DNA of 5,388 nt from a candidate division TA06 bacterium SM23_40 (lineage in GTDB: Bacteria; LJUI01; SM1-40): NCBI GenBank assembly GCA_001303705.1, contig LJUI01000166.1, positions 1-5,388 on the forward strand. Direction: 5' to 3'. Of the stretch, positions 1 through 5,388 are shown in pieces. The translations under genes and the position numbers were made by a program. Every line of letters starts with the position of its first letter. The stretch's first letter is position 1. The notes under the pieces were generated by a model that was not told the origin of the DNA, searched no databases, and was given only the letters and a program-made list of their open reading frames with translations.

Positions 1-676
1 CTGCCGCCTGGATTGCCGCTTTGGCCTCCTCCTCGAGCAGTATCGTCCCGCGACTCTCGCCAAACGCTTCCAAGGAATCTTCTGCAGCGCGAAGAGCAGC
101 CTCTGTCTCGGTAAGTCTCTTCTCGATAAATTCTCGCCTCCGTTGGATCTGTCGCACATCCAGCTCCCTGTTTACTCTGTCGAGCTCTTGCACGTACGTG
201 CGGGCGATCTTCGCCGCCAACTCAGGTGTGCGCTCAGTTGCAGAGATAACCAGCATACCTTCAGGGGTGACAGAGATCTCCGTTATCTCCTCGAGTCTGC
301 GGAGTGCCCGTATGAATTCATCGACTTCCCAGAGTTCCATCAGGTTGCATTCTTGAATGACCGCTTCGCCAACACTCCTGCTCCTCGCAAAGGCCGCAAT
401 CAGATCAGAGGGTGATGTCAAGAAGGGGATGCCGACCTGGGAGACGGCACCGAGACCGGCAAGAGGAAGTTGCGTCTGAAGCAGCGCCCCAAGAGCTCCA
501 AATCCCGATTCTTGTCCGGCAGGAAGAATAGTGGTGGAGGCCGTGTAGCGGTATGGGAGAACGAGACTGATAACGACCGCTGCAGCCACGACAAGAAAGA
601 CGTTAAGGATGATCAGCCGCCGGCGTTTGACGAGGACGCGCAGCACAGATCTCAGAGATACCTCTGTTGTCTCCAC
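1..676 (-). CDS. Wzz/GumC-family polysaccharide chain-length determinant (N-terminal part, runs off window)
   Basis: The first 225 codons are present; the 3' part lies beyond the left edge. Start is GTG at 676-674, chosen because GGGGAG (685-690) sits 8 nt upstream and an in-frame TAG lies before it. Residues 17-20 (KRRR) precede one membrane segment, about residues 21-40. The sequence then continues YRYTASTTILP, the usual junction of Wzz-domain proteins. Residues about 44-160 form the periplasmic Wzz domain, including the SRSVGEAVI element (99-107) and the PELAAKIARTYVQELD element (151-166). From about residue 160 the protein is a highly charged predicted coiled coil (NRELDVRQIQRRREFIEKRL and onward). 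Family members are inner-membrane co-polymerases that set polymer length and contact the Wza export channel. Position 83 bp downstream of a wza-like gene supports this role. Whether a C-terminal tyrosine-kinase domain follows, as in BY-kinase fusions, cannot be seen. Family call is firm; polymer type is unknown. Confidence 0.9.
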   Translation of the reverse strand, partial: METTEVSLRSVLRVLVKRRRLIILNVFLVVAAAVVISLVLPYRYTASTTILPAGQESGFGALGALLQTQLPLAGLGAVSQVGIPFLTSPSDLIAAFARSRSVGEAVIQECNLMELWEVDEFIRALRRLEEITEISVTPEGMLVISATERTPELAAKIARTYVQELDRVNRELDVRQIQRRREFIEKRLTETEAALRAAEDSLEAFGESRGTILLEEEAKAAIQAA

Positions 677-684
677 AGCCGATT

Positions 685-690
685 CTCCCC
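685..690 (-). promoter_or_regulatory. Shine-Dalgarno site of the wzz-like gene
   Basis: GGGGAG on the minus strand lies 8 nt before the GTG at 676. It decides a non-ATG start: between the in-frame TAG upstream and this GTG there is no ATG or TTG in frame. Confidence 0.7.
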
Positions 691-759
691 AGTTACCGGC
701 AACCGTCTGTAATAGCTCTGCCTATCGATTCCTCGAGTGCCTCTCCTGGCTGCCGTGTG

Positions 760-1578
760 CTACTTGGCGATAGCCATCCAGGAGAGGATGAGTGCCGTCA
801 CAGCAGTGGCAATCGTCACATAGTCACTCCACCACTGCAGGGCGACCCTTGGAACGACTATTCGGTCTCCCCGGTCGACTTCCGTCGTAATGTCCGCATC
901 CAGCTCGAATCCGTTCGGCCTCACCACCTTCATCTGCTTCAGACGGGCTCTTGATGTTGGTCCTCCCGCGACACCCAGGTAGTCACCGACGGTCATCTCG
1001 GGATAGTAGTCGTACGGACCAGGTCTGGCCACCTCGCCAGTGACGTATACTGAGGTCTCTCGAAACCCTCCTATCTGTACCAGAGTCAATTGGACCTGGG
1101 CGTCCCGCAAGTACGTGCGGAACTTTTCCTCCAGCACGAGGGCCCCATCGATCAATGTCAGGCCGGAGACTGGTACGACCGAGATGGGATGCATTGCCAG
1201 GACGGGCAACTCCAACTCAAATGTCGGCGAGGGGGTCAAGATCTCTCTGCCCTCAGCAGGTGGCCCCGGCAGACTCACAGTGAGGTTTCCATCGGCTGTC
1301 ACCGCCGTGACGTACGAGAAACTTAGCTTTCCCATGACAGTGACGAGCACCTCGTCGCGGGGCTGCAGGATGTGGGATCCCAGATCGATCGCACGCTCCG
1401 GGATCGCTTCCGCCGCCCTTTCATCTATCTCTTCGGCCGTACTCGGTATCACAAGGAGAAGGCACCCTGATGTCACAAGAACCACCCACGCAATGCAGCA
1501 CTGCAGGCGCCATAAGCGCGGCGCCGCAGCCGCATGTGACCGGCTCGCACAACGAGCTCTGTAGCAGTGTGTCCTCAT
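760..1578 (-). CDS. Wza-like polysaccharide export protein (Poly_export + SLBB) with C-terminal membrane helix
   Basis: The product has 272 residues. I start it at the ATG at 1578-1576, just after AAGGGGAG, rather than the in-frame TTG at 1611, which lies inside a strong hairpin and lacks a ribosome binding site. The N-terminus is Arg-rich, followed by a hydrophobic stretch (about residues 27-46) ending in STA before EE at 49-50, a plausible signal peptidase I site. A Cys at 39 follows TSG, but hydrophobic residues continue after it, so a lipoprotein is less likely. Residues about 66-170 fit the polysaccharide export domain (HILQPRDEVLVTVMG at 69-83). Residues about 176-243 form a clear SLBB domain (VYVTGEVARPGPYDYYPEMT, then LGVAGGPT). 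The end (about 249-270, starting WWSDYVTIA) looks like one membrane helix. E. coli Wza likewise ends in an outer-membrane helix, though that one is amphipathic. Its role is to carry polymer out of the periplasm with the Wzz-like partner. The protein is shorter than E. coli Wza, and only one SLBB domain is visible. Confidence 0.87.
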   Translation of the reverse strand: MRTHCYRARCASRSHAAAAPRLWRLQCCIAWVVLVTSGCLLLVIPSTAEEIDERAAEAIPERAIDLGSHILQPRDEVLVTVMGKLSFSYVTAVTADGNLTVSLPGPPAEGREILTPSPTFELELPVLAMHPISVVPVSGLTLIDGALVLEEKFRTYLRDAQVQLTLVQIGGFRETSVYVTGEVARPGPYDYYPEMTVGDYLGVAGGPTSRARLKQMKVVRPNGFELDADITTEVDRGDRIVVPRVALQWWSDYVTIATAVTALILSWMAIAK

Positions 1579-1597
1579 CTGCTCCCCTTTTTCGAAA

Positions 1598-1639
1598 TGC
1601 CGGGACGCCAATGCAGCTCAGACTTCGGCGTCCCGGCAT
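1598..1639 (-). promoter_or_regulatory. Perfect 13-bp inverted repeat (hairpin) in the wza-like leader
   Basis: ATGCCGGGACGCC (1597-1609) is exactly mirrored by GGCGTCCCGGCAT (1627-1639) around a 17-nt loop. In the minus-strand transcript the hairpin ends about 18 nt before the ATG at 1578, directly next to the AAAAAGGGGAG ribosome binding region. There is no U-tract after it on either strand (TTTCG on minus, ATAGAAAT on plus), so it is not a standard intrinsic terminator. It could act as an attenuator, an mRNA-stability hairpin, a protein-binding RNA element or a DNA operator. The structure is read directly; the role is inferred. Confidence 0.7.
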
Positions 1640-1709
1640 AGAAATCTACCCCGTGGACGAAACTGCCCCTTCACTCCTACCGAGACACCTGTCGAAGCTC
1701 TACGGATAA

Positions 1710-1730
1710 GGCCGCCCTCTCCCGGCAGCC
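1710..1730 (-). promoter_or_regulatory. Leader hairpin (7-bp stem, 7-nt loop)
   Basis: On the minus strand GGCTGCC, loop GGGAGAG, GGCGGCC. The stem pairs over all 7 positions with one U-G wobble, and the loop is all purine. It lies in the middle of the presumed 5' leader of the wza-like gene, between two other hairpins. Confidence 0.5.
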
Positions 1731-1741
1731 TGGCGCTCTCC

Positions 1742-1770
1742 GGGGCTGTCGATGCTATCGATTCAGCCCC
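1742..1770 (-). promoter_or_regulatory. Leader hairpin (7-bp + 5-bp stems, 3-nt loop)
   Basis: On the minus strand GGGGCTG, AA bulge, TCGAT, loop AGC, ATCGA, CAGCCCC. Twelve base pairs form with a 2-nt asymmetric bulge. No U-tract follows, so it is not a terminator. It is the second of the leader hairpins after the candidate promoter. Confidence 0.55.
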
Positions 1771-1885
1771 TGAAAGAAATCCCTAACATTCAACAAGCTT
1801 CGATAGGAACTATCCTCCATCGGGGTCTATGCTTACATAAAAGACTTGCCAACTCAACGAGAATGCAACAAATGCCTCCTGGTAC

Positions 1886-1914
1886 TATCTACCAAACCCG
1901 TAAGGGATTGTCAA
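1886..1914 (-). promoter_or_regulatory. Candidate sigma-70-type promoter for the wza-wzz genes
   Basis: On the minus strand a perfect -35 TTGACA (1909-1914) is followed by a 17-nt spacer and a weak -10, TAGATA (1886-1891; 3 of 6 consensus positions). Upstream of the -35 is an A-rich stretch (1917-1935, AAAATCTAGAAAAAAAGAG) that resembles an UP element. This is the most AT-rich spot in the window. Transcription would begin near 1879 and give a leader of about 300 nt before the wza-like ATG. The exact -35, the spacing and the A-tract support the call; the poor -10 limits confidence. Confidence 0.45.
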
Positions 1915-1980
1915 CTCTTTTTTTCTAGATTTTGGGGAACTTTACGCAGGCTCAAATGGCCCTTGAATGCCAACAATGCC

Positions 1981-2270
1981 GAGGGGGTCCGGCCGGAGTC
2001 CGGTCTCTCGGGTCCTGACGCGCACTCTGACCGGGTGGACTCAGGAATTGCGCTCGTCCTCGGCGTCCAGGCGCGGTTCCTGCCCCGGCTTCGGGCTGCC
2101 CGATCGACCTCCCGCCGAGGGTGCGACATGCCTGTCCGGAATCCGATCTCGCGTCGAGGGTCCCCGCCGAGCATCTCATCCGGCAAGCGTCTCATCCGCG
2201 GAGGGTCCGATATCTCGGTCCGGAGTGCGATCTGGCGCCAAGCGTCCGCGCAAGCGTCCCCCTCATGCGT
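1981..2270. repeat. Decayed GC-rich tandem-like repeat region downstream of the dehydratase gene
   Basis: Related blocks can be aligned on the plus strand at 1995-2015, 2044-2068, 2138-2163, 2203-2221 and 2222-2247. They share a pattern of GGAnTCCGATCTC, a short variable stretch, then TCGnGGGTCC or a close variant. The best pair (2138-2163 and 2222-2247) agrees at about 20 of 26 positions. Spacing is irregular and some copies have internal deletions, so it is an old, eroded array or a set of related insertions rather than a clean tandem repeat. It begins within about 40 bp of the stop codon of the dehydratase gene and ends at the AT-rich promoter segment. No protein feature is visible here. 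Confidence 0.5.
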
Positions 2271-2307
2271 CCCCGCCGCCCACCGATTGCGCTCTCCCCC
2301 ACTCACC

Positions 2308-3357
2308 TCATCCTCGCGGCCGTCCACCCCCGGGCAGCGTCTCCTCATACCATCTGACCGTAAACTCGTGGTATTCCCGCTTCGTCTCAATGATGTTCCT
2401 CCACCACCGCTCATTCTCGACATACCAGTCGATCATCTTTCCCAGGCCGACCTTGAATTCCGTCTTCGCACGCCATCCCAGGAGCTTCTGGGCCTTGGCG
2501 GTCGAAGCACAGTGGCGCTTCACGTGGCCGGGGCGGTCAGCGACGAATTTCTTGAGTTCGAGCGGCTTGCCGATGTGGGTCAATATCTGATCAGTGATCG
2601 TGAGGACGTTCGTCTCCTTGCCTGTGCCGAGATTGATCACCTCTCCTTTGAGCTTCGCCAGATCTTGGGCGAGCGCGCGACCCAGCCCCTCACAGCAATC
2701 CTCGACAAAGACCCAGTCCCGTGTGTTCTTGCCGTCGCCGTACATGGGCAGGGGCTTGTCCTGAAGCGCATTCAGGATGAAAAACGGGATGAGCTTCTCG
2801 GGAAACTGATTCGGGCCGTAGTTGTTGAACGGACGTATGATGACGATCGGGAGGTCATAGGTGGCATAATACGAATAGGCAAGGCGATCCGCTCCCACCT
2901 TACACCCTGCGTACGGGCTCATCGGCTTCAACGGGTGGTCTTCTGTCATGGGGACGGACTCGGCGGTCCCATAGACCTCGCTTGTCGAGATATGAATGAA
3001 ACGCTCCACATCGGATCTTCGCAGCGCCTCGAGCAGTACCTGCGTCCCCTTGACATCCGTGCTGACGAACGGATCTGCGTTGTCGATAGACCGATCGACG
3101 TGCGTTTCGGCCGCGAAATGGATGACCTGGTCTGCACCCTTCATTGCGTCGGCCACTGCCTTGGGATCCCGGATATCTCCGTGTCGGAAATCGAAGTTTG
3201 GGTGGCTGCGCTCTTCTTCCGAGAAGTTATCCAGGTTACCGGCATAGGTGAGCGCGTCGAGGATCATCATCTTGCGTTCGGGATGTTCGCGAAGCATCCG
3301 TCTCACGAAGTTGCTCCCGATGAACCCTGCGCCACCCGTCACGAGAAGGTATCCCAT
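2308..3357 (-). CDS. rfbB: RmlB/RfbB-type nucleotide-sugar 4,6-dehydratase (extended SDR), probably dTDP-glucose 4,6-dehydratase
   Basis: The product has 349 residues from the ATG at 3357, which lies 7 nt after AGGGAG; the adjacent ATG at 3360 is only 4 nt away and would add one residue. RmlB proteins are usually about 350-360 long, so it is complete. It is an NAD-binding Rossmann enzyme that oxidises C4, eliminates water across C5-C6 and reduces C6, giving a 4-keto-6-deoxy sugar nucleotide. Visible motifs are TGGAGFIG (7-14), AAETHVDRSI (82-91), catalytic YAGCK (Tyr149, Lys153), NNYGPNQFPEKLIP (178-191), RDW and DRPGH (274-278). These last blocks are typical of RmlB. The catalytic triad reads T125-S126-E127 instead of the Thr-Asp-Glu of RmlB, and the usual RRY after DRPGH is KRH. 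TSE is found in GDP-mannose dehydratase and UDP-glucuronate decarboxylases, so the substrate or the reaction could differ. The tail after about residue 338 (ETLPGGGRPRG) is Gly/Arg-rich and may be an extension into spacer DNA. Cytoplasmic; it would feed the polysaccharide made by this locus. Confidence 0.85.
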   Translation of the reverse strand: MGYLLVTGGAGFIGSNFVRRMLREHPERKMMILDALTYAGNLDNFSEEERSHPNFDFRHGDIRDPKAVADAMKGADQVIHFAAETHVDRSIDNADPFVSTDVKGTQVLLEALRRSDVERFIHISTSEVYGTAESVPMTEDHPLKPMSPYAGCKVGADRLAYSYYATYDLPIVIIRPFNNYGPNQFPEKLIPFFILNALQDKPLPMYGDGKNTRDWVFVEDCCEGLGRALAQDLAKLKGEVINLGTGKETNVLTITDQILTHIGKPLELKKFVADRPGHVKRHCASTAKAQKLLGWRAKTEFKVGLGKMIDWYVENERWWRNIIETKREYHEFTVRWYEETLPGGGRPRG

Positions 3358-3360
3358 CAT

Positions 3361-3580
3361 ATATCTCCCTGTACTAGGCTGACTGCGGCTAAGTCCTCTT
3401 CCCCAAGGGTATCTGCAGTTACGTCGTACTGTCCGAGGCTGCCTCCCGATTCCTGTTTCAATGGTGTATTCGCTTCCTGCCCTACCCTTGATCCGACTCC
3501 ACCATGTCCCGACCGTTCCACCTGCGCACACTATCCTGTTCGCCCCGATTTCATTCGAGCCTCACCCGCATGGCGCCACA
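3361..3580. other. Spacer upstream of the dehydratase gene
   Basis: This is about 200 bp between the dehydratase start and the 20-bp repeat. Only the ribosome binding site at 3365-3370 stands out. No convincing -35/-10 pair, terminator or small gene was found. The block at 3561-3580 shows faint similarity to the neighbouring repeat (CTCACCC, GCCACA) and may be a decayed unit. Confidence 0.4.
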
Positions 3581-3704
3581 CGCTTCCGGTCACCCTCACA
3601 CCCGTGCGCTCACCCCAACGCGCCTGCGCTCACCTCCATACGCCTGTGCTCACCGGCACGCGCCTACGCTCACAGCCATACGTCTCTGCTCACCCCCACA
3701 CGCC
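3581..3704. repeat. 20-bp tandem repeat, six units, overlapping the permease stop codon
   Basis: Six head-to-tail 20-bp units start at 3581, 3601, 3621, 3641, 3661 and 3681, with a CGCC stub at 3701-3704. The plus-strand consensus is close to CGCCTGCGCTCACCCCCACA. The GCTCAC core recurs exactly every 20 bp from 3608 to 3688 (GGTCAC at 3588). Differences are mostly single substitutions; there are no indels. The permease TGA (3690-3692) and its last codons lie inside the last unit, so the array starts in coding sequence and extends away from it. Twenty is not a multiple of three, so it is not a coding repeat. Confidence 0.85.
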
Positions 3705-4964
3705 CCAGATAAACGCTGAGGCCACTGCAACGGCGATGACCGAGAACGGAAATCCGATCCTGGCGAATTCAAAAAAGTTGGTGTGATGGCCGCGCTTGCG
3801 GAGCATCCCCACGGCGACGACGTTTGCCGCCGCACCGATCGGCGTAATGTTCCCCCCGATCGAGGCGCCGATGAGCACTCCGAACAGGAACAGGTAGGGC
3901 GACATGCCGATTCCGGCTGCGATCGTCTGGCCCACCGGTATCATCGCCGTCACATATGGCACATTATCCACGAACGCAGACACGAAGACAGAGAGCCAGA
4001 CGAGGAGCGAGTACGTTGCGAAGACGCTCCCGCCCGATAACCGGGCGATCTTATCGGCAATGTCATTGACGACACCATGAGCGACGAGCGAGCCGACGAG
4101 CACGAAAATCCCCGCCAGAAAGAATGTCGTCTCCCAGTCGAAGTTCTTGAGAACCGTAAGGCTCCGTTCCTTCTGTCTTGCCGTCTGCCAGACAAGACCC
4201 GCCACCGCGAACACCATGCAGATGATGCCGCCGAGATTCGGGATCCGCGCGGCCGCCCCGGAGCTCACGGCGAGCGCCAGCGTCATCCCGGCGAGAAGCC
4301 CGGTCGGCACCCATGACTCGATAACCGTCTCCGGCGGTATCCTGGCCCGCTCCCGGTGCCCCCGGAAGATCACATAGAGCACGATGAGGGATGCCAGTGC
4401 GCCCAACTCGATCGCGAAGAAGATGCTCATCCGGCCCTGGAAGAAGAAGAAATCGTTGAACGTCATCCCGGTGTACCCGGCCAGGATCATGCTCGGAGGG
4501 TCGCCGATCAGGGTCGCCGCGCCCTGCAGGTTCGAGCTGATTGCGATGCCGATAAGGAGCGGCACCGGCGACACCCTGATGCGAGCAGCGATCGCGAGCG
4601 CAACCGGGGCAACGATGAGGACGGTCGCCACATTCTCCACAAAGGCCGAGATGATTCCGGAGAGTGCCGACACCAGGAGAAATGCCATCCCCACGCTCGT
4701 CGACCTGTTGACGAGCCATTCTGCGAGGTAGGCAGGGACCTTCGAGTAGACGAACAGTTCGGCGACGATCAACGCACCCCAGAAGATCCCCATCACGTTC
4801 CAGTTGATCGACGACAGGGCGTCGCCGGGGGTAATGGCCCCCAGGACGAACAGAATCCCTGCCCCCACCCAGACGGCCAGTCCCTTGAACCGGTGACTGA
4901 CAGCGAGAAAGACGTAGACGACGCAGAAGACGCCGATCACCGCGATCTTCGGGCTCAGCACCAA
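3690..4964 (-). CDS. Ion-transporter-superfamily permease (SLC13/ArsB/NhaD/CitM-like), substrate unknown
   Basis: The product has 424 residues and is an inner-membrane secondary transporter with roughly 11-12 hydrophobic segments. Start is TTG at 4964-4962, because a full-strength GGAGGTGA (4973-4980) sits 8 nt upstream. The GTG directly after it (4961) is the alternative; a longer start at TTG 4991 has no properly spaced site and would lie in the repeat array. The two-fold internal duplication of the superfamily is visible. Repeat 1 has SAFVENVATVLIVAPV (106-121) and GAATLIGDPPSMILAG (148-163). Repeat 2 has SAFVDNVPYVTAMIPV (329-344) and GGNITPIGAAANVVAVG (370-386). These Asn-containing paired motifs form the ion and substrate sites in relatives. 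The look resembles the ArsB/P-protein/NhaD side of the superfamily rather than dicarboxylate carriers, but arsenite, Na+/H+ or organic acid cannot be decided. Repeats flank the gene on both sides. No nearby arsR-like or other regulatory gene hints at a function. Confidence 0.85.
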   Translation of the reverse strand: MVLSPKIAVIGVFCVVYVFLAVSHRFKGLAVWVGAGILFVLGAITPGDALSSINWNVMGIFWGALIVAELFVYSKVPAYLAEWLVNRSTSVGMAFLLVSALSGIISAFVENVATVLIVAPVALAIAARIRVSPVPLLIGIAISSNLQGAATLIGDPPSMILAGYTGMTFNDFFFFQGRMSIFFAIELGALASLIVLYVIFRGHRERARIPPETVIESWVPTGLLAGMTLALAVSSGAAARIPNLGGIICMVFAVAGLVWQTARQKERSLTVLKNFDWETTFFLAGIFVLVGSLVAHGVVNDIADKIARLSGGSVFATYSLLVWLSVFVSAFVDNVPYVTAMIPVGQTIAAGIGMSPYLFLFGVLIGASIGGNITPIGAAANVVAVGMLRKRGHHTNFFEFARIGFPFSVIAVAVASAFIWGVWG

Positions 4965-4972
4965 TGTACCGC

Positions 4973-4980
4973 TCACCTCC
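4973..4980 (-). promoter_or_regulatory. Strong Shine-Dalgarno site of the permease gene
   Basis: GGAGGTGA on the minus strand is fully complementary to the 3' end of 16S rRNA and is 8 nt from TTG 4964. It fixes the start downstream of the 25-bp repeat array, whose last unit ends only 3 bp away, at 4984. Confidence 0.75.
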
Positions 4981-4983
4981 GTG

Positions 4984-5333
4984 AATGTCAACTCCCATGC
5001 GTGGCGGGAGCGTCAAGCTCGTCTTGAGGGCCTGGTGTCGACTCCCCTCGAAGGCCTCAGCGTCAGCTCTCGTGCGTGGCCTTAGCGTCAACTCTTGTGC
5101 GTGGCCTGAGCGCCAACTCTTGTGCCCGACCTGAGTGTCACCTCTTATGCCTGGTCTCGGCGTCAGCTCTCGTGCCTACTCTCAACGTCAGCTTTCGTGC
5201 CTGGTCTCAACGTCTGCTCTCGCGCCTGATCTCAACGTCAGCTTTCGGGCCTAATCTCATCGTCGGCTCTCGTGCCCGATCTCAACGTCGGCCCTCGAGC
5301 CTGCTCTGGACGTCAGCTCTTTCGTCCGGCCTG
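4984..5333. repeat. 25-bp degenerate tandem repeat, about 14 units, directly upstream of the permease gene
   Basis: On the plus strand, eleven exact 25-bp steps run from 5059 (starts 5059, 5084, 5109 and so on to 5309, ending 5333). They are preceded by three less regular units (4984-5008, 25 bp; 5009-5034, 26 bp; 5035-5058, 24 bp). The core of a unit is close to CGTCAGCTCTCGTGCC, then TGGTCTC and AA before the next core. The CGTC, C-T-T/C and GCC positions are best kept; most changes are transitions. Units near the middle (5184-5258) resemble each other most, as expected of local expansion. There are no spacers, so this is not CRISPR, and 25 bp is not a coding period. The array fills nearly the whole gap and stops 3 bp short of the permease ribosome binding site, so any permease promoter must lie within or to the right of the array. 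Confidence 0.88.
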
Positions 5334-5350
5334 AGCCGTCCCCTGCCTCC

Positions 5351-5388
5351 CTACTGCGGGCCCATAACGAGGTCCAGCTCATCACCCT
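5351..5388 (-). CDS. Possible 3' end of an upstream gene (11 codons visible)
   Basis: In one minus-strand frame the edge reads GDELDLVMGPQ followed by TAG at 5353-5351. It could be the C-terminus of a gene lying to the right, with the 25-bp array starting 17 bp after its stop, much as the 20-bp array starts at the stop of the permease. Another frame is also open at the edge, and eleven residues cannot identify a family. Treat as a hint only. Confidence 0.22.
   Translation of the reverse strand, partial: GDELDLVMGPQ

Follow-up and report, generated by a model that had tools for sequence, protein, structure and literature searches.

A degenerate 25-bp tandem array upstream of a CitMHS-family permease gene is probably a locally formed, decaying minisatellite

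The window, an entire 5,388-base contig from the 2.88-Mb draft genome of the candidate division TA06 bacterium SM23_40, carries a long tandem array of a 25-bp unit directly upstream of a permease gene. We consider it likely that this array formed locally as an intergenic minisatellite and is now decaying, and that no specific function depends on its sequence. The minisatellite is most probably an ordinary, lineage-specific one. The array and its surroundings consist of the following features.

3577..3716, minus strand: degenerate 20-bp-period array with an additional higher-order period of 40 bp, beginning at the permease 3' end; its unit shows no relation to that of the 25-bp array (Tandem Repeats Finder, lag scan)
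3690..4964, minus strand: CitMHS-family (citrate/arsenite-type) permease gene (Pfam PF03600, E=5e-72)
4973..4980, minus strand: strong Shine-Dalgarno site GGAGGTGA, read from the sequence; abuts the array and lies 8 nt before TTG 4964
4981..5055, minus strand: three degraded copies nearest the permease, bearing indels (wrap-around alignment against the consensus unit)
5056..5330, minus strand: eleven copies of 25 bp in exact register, sense-strand consensus AnCAGGCACGAGAGCTGACGnTGAG (Tandem Repeats Finder, lag test, copy alignment)
5351..5388, minus strand: possible 3' end of a co-directional upstream gene, ...GDELDLVMGPQ-stop (translation only; the contig ends after 11 codons)

Tandem Repeats Finder, proposed as a check when the array was noticed, recovered period 25 at 5056-5320 (10.6 copies, 78% matches, score 215), and a gap-free lag-25 scan followed the array over 5027-5333 (12.3 copies). 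Identity at lag 25 was 0.769 across 5056-5331, compared with a best value at any lag of 0.477 in 1000 dinucleotide shuffles; at lags of 50, 75, 100 and 125 it was 0.74, 0.71, 0.71 and 0.69, respectively. Gapped wrap-around alignment added the three further degraded copies at 4981-5055, which scored 36 where shuffles averaged 17.2 (none of 2000 was as good), and detected no more 25-bp copies beyond about 5340. The array is not due to chance and, being an above-chance head-to-tail repetition with a unit in the range of roughly 10-60 bp, it is a minisatellite. The sequence-only reading, which had described a minisatellite of fourteen 25-bp units at 4984-5333 beside the Shine-Dalgarno site, was right about its nature, period, copy number and place, and correct to a few bases about its limits, measured here as 4981-5333. 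Its statement that unit length is held at exactly 25 bp over eleven copies applies to 5056-5330 only. The exact register is confined to the middle of the array, and the permease-proximal edge copies contain indels.

The permease probably starts at TTG 4964-4962, within a frame that stays open to 4991; in that longer frame, similarity to relatives sets in at residue 5-15, consistent with this start. As had been noted, the array ends next to the Shine-Dalgarno site, and GGAGGTGA at 4980-4973 in fact directly abuts it. Given this position, the earlier view that the array must belong to the leader or the promoter region is sound, and the array is probably transcribed as an untranslated leader. The sole match in a promoter scan, a sigma-70-like sequence at 4991-4963, was rejected as the permease promoter: its overlap with both the start codon and the Shine-Dalgarno site means that it cannot serve the TTG 4964 start. 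On the distal side, the candidate upstream frame has its stop at 5353-5351; if this gene end holds, about 350 of the 370 bp of apparent spacer (about 94%) are array. Two aspects of its placement count against a neutral reading and could suggest a functional leader: the array takes up almost all of the apparent spacer, and it ends exactly at the Shine-Dalgarno site. No periodic DNA was found upstream of the permease homologues that were retrieved (31-55% identical), which places the array outside any conserved arrangement; in several of these homologues a co-directional gene precedes the permease almost without a gap. The remainder of the window includes a minus-strand group of polysaccharide genes (2-3360) encoding a Wzz-type chain-length protein, an SLBB-domain export protein and a nucleotide-sugar dehydratase/epimerase.

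The relationships among the copies point to their origin. Neighbouring copies are 77% identical, and identity falls to 64-68% for copies 6-10 units apart, with about 65% at 6-7 units (Mantel r -0.41, p 0.01). In a neighbour-joining tree, adjacent copies 1-3 and 4-9 cluster. Similarity that depends on closeness, together with this grouping, is the mark of local duplication. Differences between adjacent copies favour transitions (47 to 24). The array at 3577-3716, in which Tandem Repeats Finder recovered the 40-bp higher-order duplication, likewise supports local duplication.

We also considered whether the array could be a set of regulatory binding sites, with a DNA- or RNA-binding protein reading conserved positions of the unit and controlling the permease. 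The location directly before the Shine-Dalgarno site would suit such a role, and seven of the 25 unit columns are invariant in all eleven copies. However, neutral simulations gave a mean of 4.4-6.2 invariant columns, so that seven is not an excess (p 0.13-0.44). The variance-to-mean ratio of changes among columns was 1.14, compared with 0.74 in the neutral simulation (p ~0.03, uncorrected). This rate variation counts in favour of binding sites and against neutrality; it is the only hint of constraint, a weak one, and gives a constrained motif a slight chance. Against binding sites stand the decay of similarity with distance, as a duplication history predicts, the distant homologous permeases that lack an array in front, and the restriction of the unit to a single place in the genome. 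A search of the host genome found the 25-bp unit at no other locus, which makes the previously suggested binding protein unlikely if it is to have other genomic targets; a binding role would require a factor that acts at this one locus alone. Taken together, we regard regulatory binding as quite improbable. The proposal that the period is kept by selection or conversion while the bases drift was likewise not borne out: the edge copies have indels, identity decays with distance, the invariant columns lie within the neutral range, and arrays elsewhere in the genome are built from unrelated units and vary in period.

In other bacteria, tandem repeats upstream of genes can be phase-variable, tuning expression. 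By analogy, the copy number of the permease array might tune translation or transcription of the gene, as had been suggested. However, the copies are only about 75% identical overall, perfect matches between adjacent copies do not exceed 12 nt, and the edges carry indels; an array in this state would be expected to be stable. With adjacent perfect runs this short the array looks too decayed for frequent slippage, and control by copy number is therefore unlikely at present. We judge a contingency element of this kind to be very unlikely.

Strand asymmetry raised the question of a structured RNA or a Rho-related transcription element. The sense strand of the array is purine-rich and the antisense strand pyrimidine-rich, and an antisense RNA would be C-rich. 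However, predicted folding was no better than in shuffles on either strand (z +1.18 and +0.37), no Rfam match was found, and the purine richness of the sense strand is much as in ordinary spacers. In comparison with ordinary spacers of the genome, arrays had a G/C skew of 0.17 versus 0.12 (p 0.09) and an A/T skew of 0.13 versus 0.02 (p 0.01); purine loading was thus discarded as an array-specific trait, being weak and mostly common to all spacers. Since arrays are purine-rich on the sense strand, any Rho effect would concern antisense RNA only. The probability that we assign to an RNA or Rho element is accordingly very small indeed. Smaller still is that of a repeat protein encoded by the array, although a 104-codon frame on the plus strand (5076-5387) is open across it. 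The unit length of 25 is not divisible by three, and the gene caller called no gene there, so the array is very probably noncoding; sister arrays in the genome are noncoding as well, with periods such as 14, 16, 20 and 22.

The permease array is one of many. A lag scan of 813 kb (28%) of the genome, sampled as stretches and including 154 kb of noncoding DNA, revealed 53 noncoding and 13 coding arrays; shuffled sequence yielded 1-4 in all, depending on the threshold. The 25-bp array had the top score in this sample. Periods spanned 10-57 bp, with most at 12-25 or 40-50; periods of 19 and 20, or of 16 and 17, were combined within some arrays. The units are nearly all unrelated to one another and to the 25-bp unit: all-against-all blastn connected only neighbouring arrays and members of a separate 40-44-bp dispersed family, and for the permease array it returned one 19-nt match (E=0.01) and nothing else. 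No similar plasmid DNA was found. In co-directional spacers, 21 arrays were associated with gene starts and 15 with gene ends, a split that indicates no preference (p 0.41). Arrays cluster among contigs beyond chance (p 0.0004), which simple neutrality does not predict and which was counted against it. Mis-binned contigs were rejected as the source of the arrays, as array density, though clustered, was uncorrelated with tetranucleotide composition. Within the window, the spacer at 2100-2300, beside the nucleotide-sugar dehydratase gene, contains weak period-12 repeats CAAGCGTCCCCG at 2239-2276 and looks like an array in more advanced decay.

A dispersed repeat family was seen in the same genome. 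Its core, GGGACGTTGGTAGGTT, occurs at 83 sites with at most one mismatch, and the reversed control gave none. Sites, for example L055 14983-15086, L076 7373-7452 and L090 5556-5631, often form pairs, either direct with a spacing of about 40-70 bp or inverted with one of about 200-360 bp, and the family looks like a REP-type or MITE-type element. A weak Y1 transposase-like frame (C134:3542-3703) falls just under the Pfam cut-off, and its contig has no listed GGGACGTTGGTAGGTT sites.

The same procedure was applied to 937 kb from 40 unrelated genomes, a small sample of each, and found 31 noncoding arrays in 189 kb. Noncoding arrays thus number 0.344 per kb here versus 0.164 in the controls, and degenerate arrays of at least three copies 0.156 versus 0.058 per kb. 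The genome is about 2-3 times richer in arrays than the average control, and several controls reach similar values. In a first comparison with a smaller control set, arrays per total Mb were not in excess. Because the coding/noncoding split came from a simple purpose-written gene caller, control samples were small and arrays cluster among contigs, we do not lean on this enrichment. A broader proposal would be an unusual mutational tendency of this isolated lineage, in which locally unique tandem arrays, with most periods at 12-25 and 40-57 bp, repeatedly arise in spacers and subsequently decay. Much spacer DNA would then derive from minisatellites of various ages, with the permease array as the best preserved among the long ones. 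We offer this tentatively and think it unlikely. A literature search on locally unique, degenerate intergenic arrays in bacteria returned neither a direct precedent nor a contradiction. If the array excess holds across the lineage, it would provide a natural setting in which to study how bacterial spacers grow and decay by tandem duplication.

For the permease array itself, we favor formation and decay in place. Replication slippage or unequal exchange may have tandemly duplicated a short spacer sequence over and over, with later rounds copying adjacent units that had already diverged. The array would then have drifted nearly neutrally, under little constraint, in a spacer that tolerates added length. 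It now sits between the apparent upstream gene and the permease Shine-Dalgarno site, probably within an untranslated leader. A striking array right before a gene need not regulate it when the spacers of the genome hold many unrelated arrays.

The array was compared with known repeats of several kinds. MIRU of mycobacteria, PU/BIME of E. coli and STRR/LTRR of cyanobacteria are intergenic families in which one sequence occurs across many loci. The permease array resembles these in its intergenic location and in tandem clustering; however, they are dispersed, whereas the 25-bp unit is present at one locus only and the genome's other arrays are built from units unrelated to it. Iteron and operator arrays are alike in having regularly spaced direct repeats before a gene. 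Here, in contrast, no replication or regulator gene lies nearby on the contig, similarity decays with distance and the array is not conserved with the gene. Bacterial minisatellites, including the VNTR loci used for MLVA typing, share the head-to-tail arrangement of a locus-specific unit of about 10-60 bp, which here lies in spacer DNA. Copy identity of 90% or more is a criterion for typing repeats (PMC2884548, which also describes the PU repeats of E. coli), and by that measure the permease array, with about 75% between copies, is far more decayed. The array fits the general kind of bacterial intergenic minisatellite.
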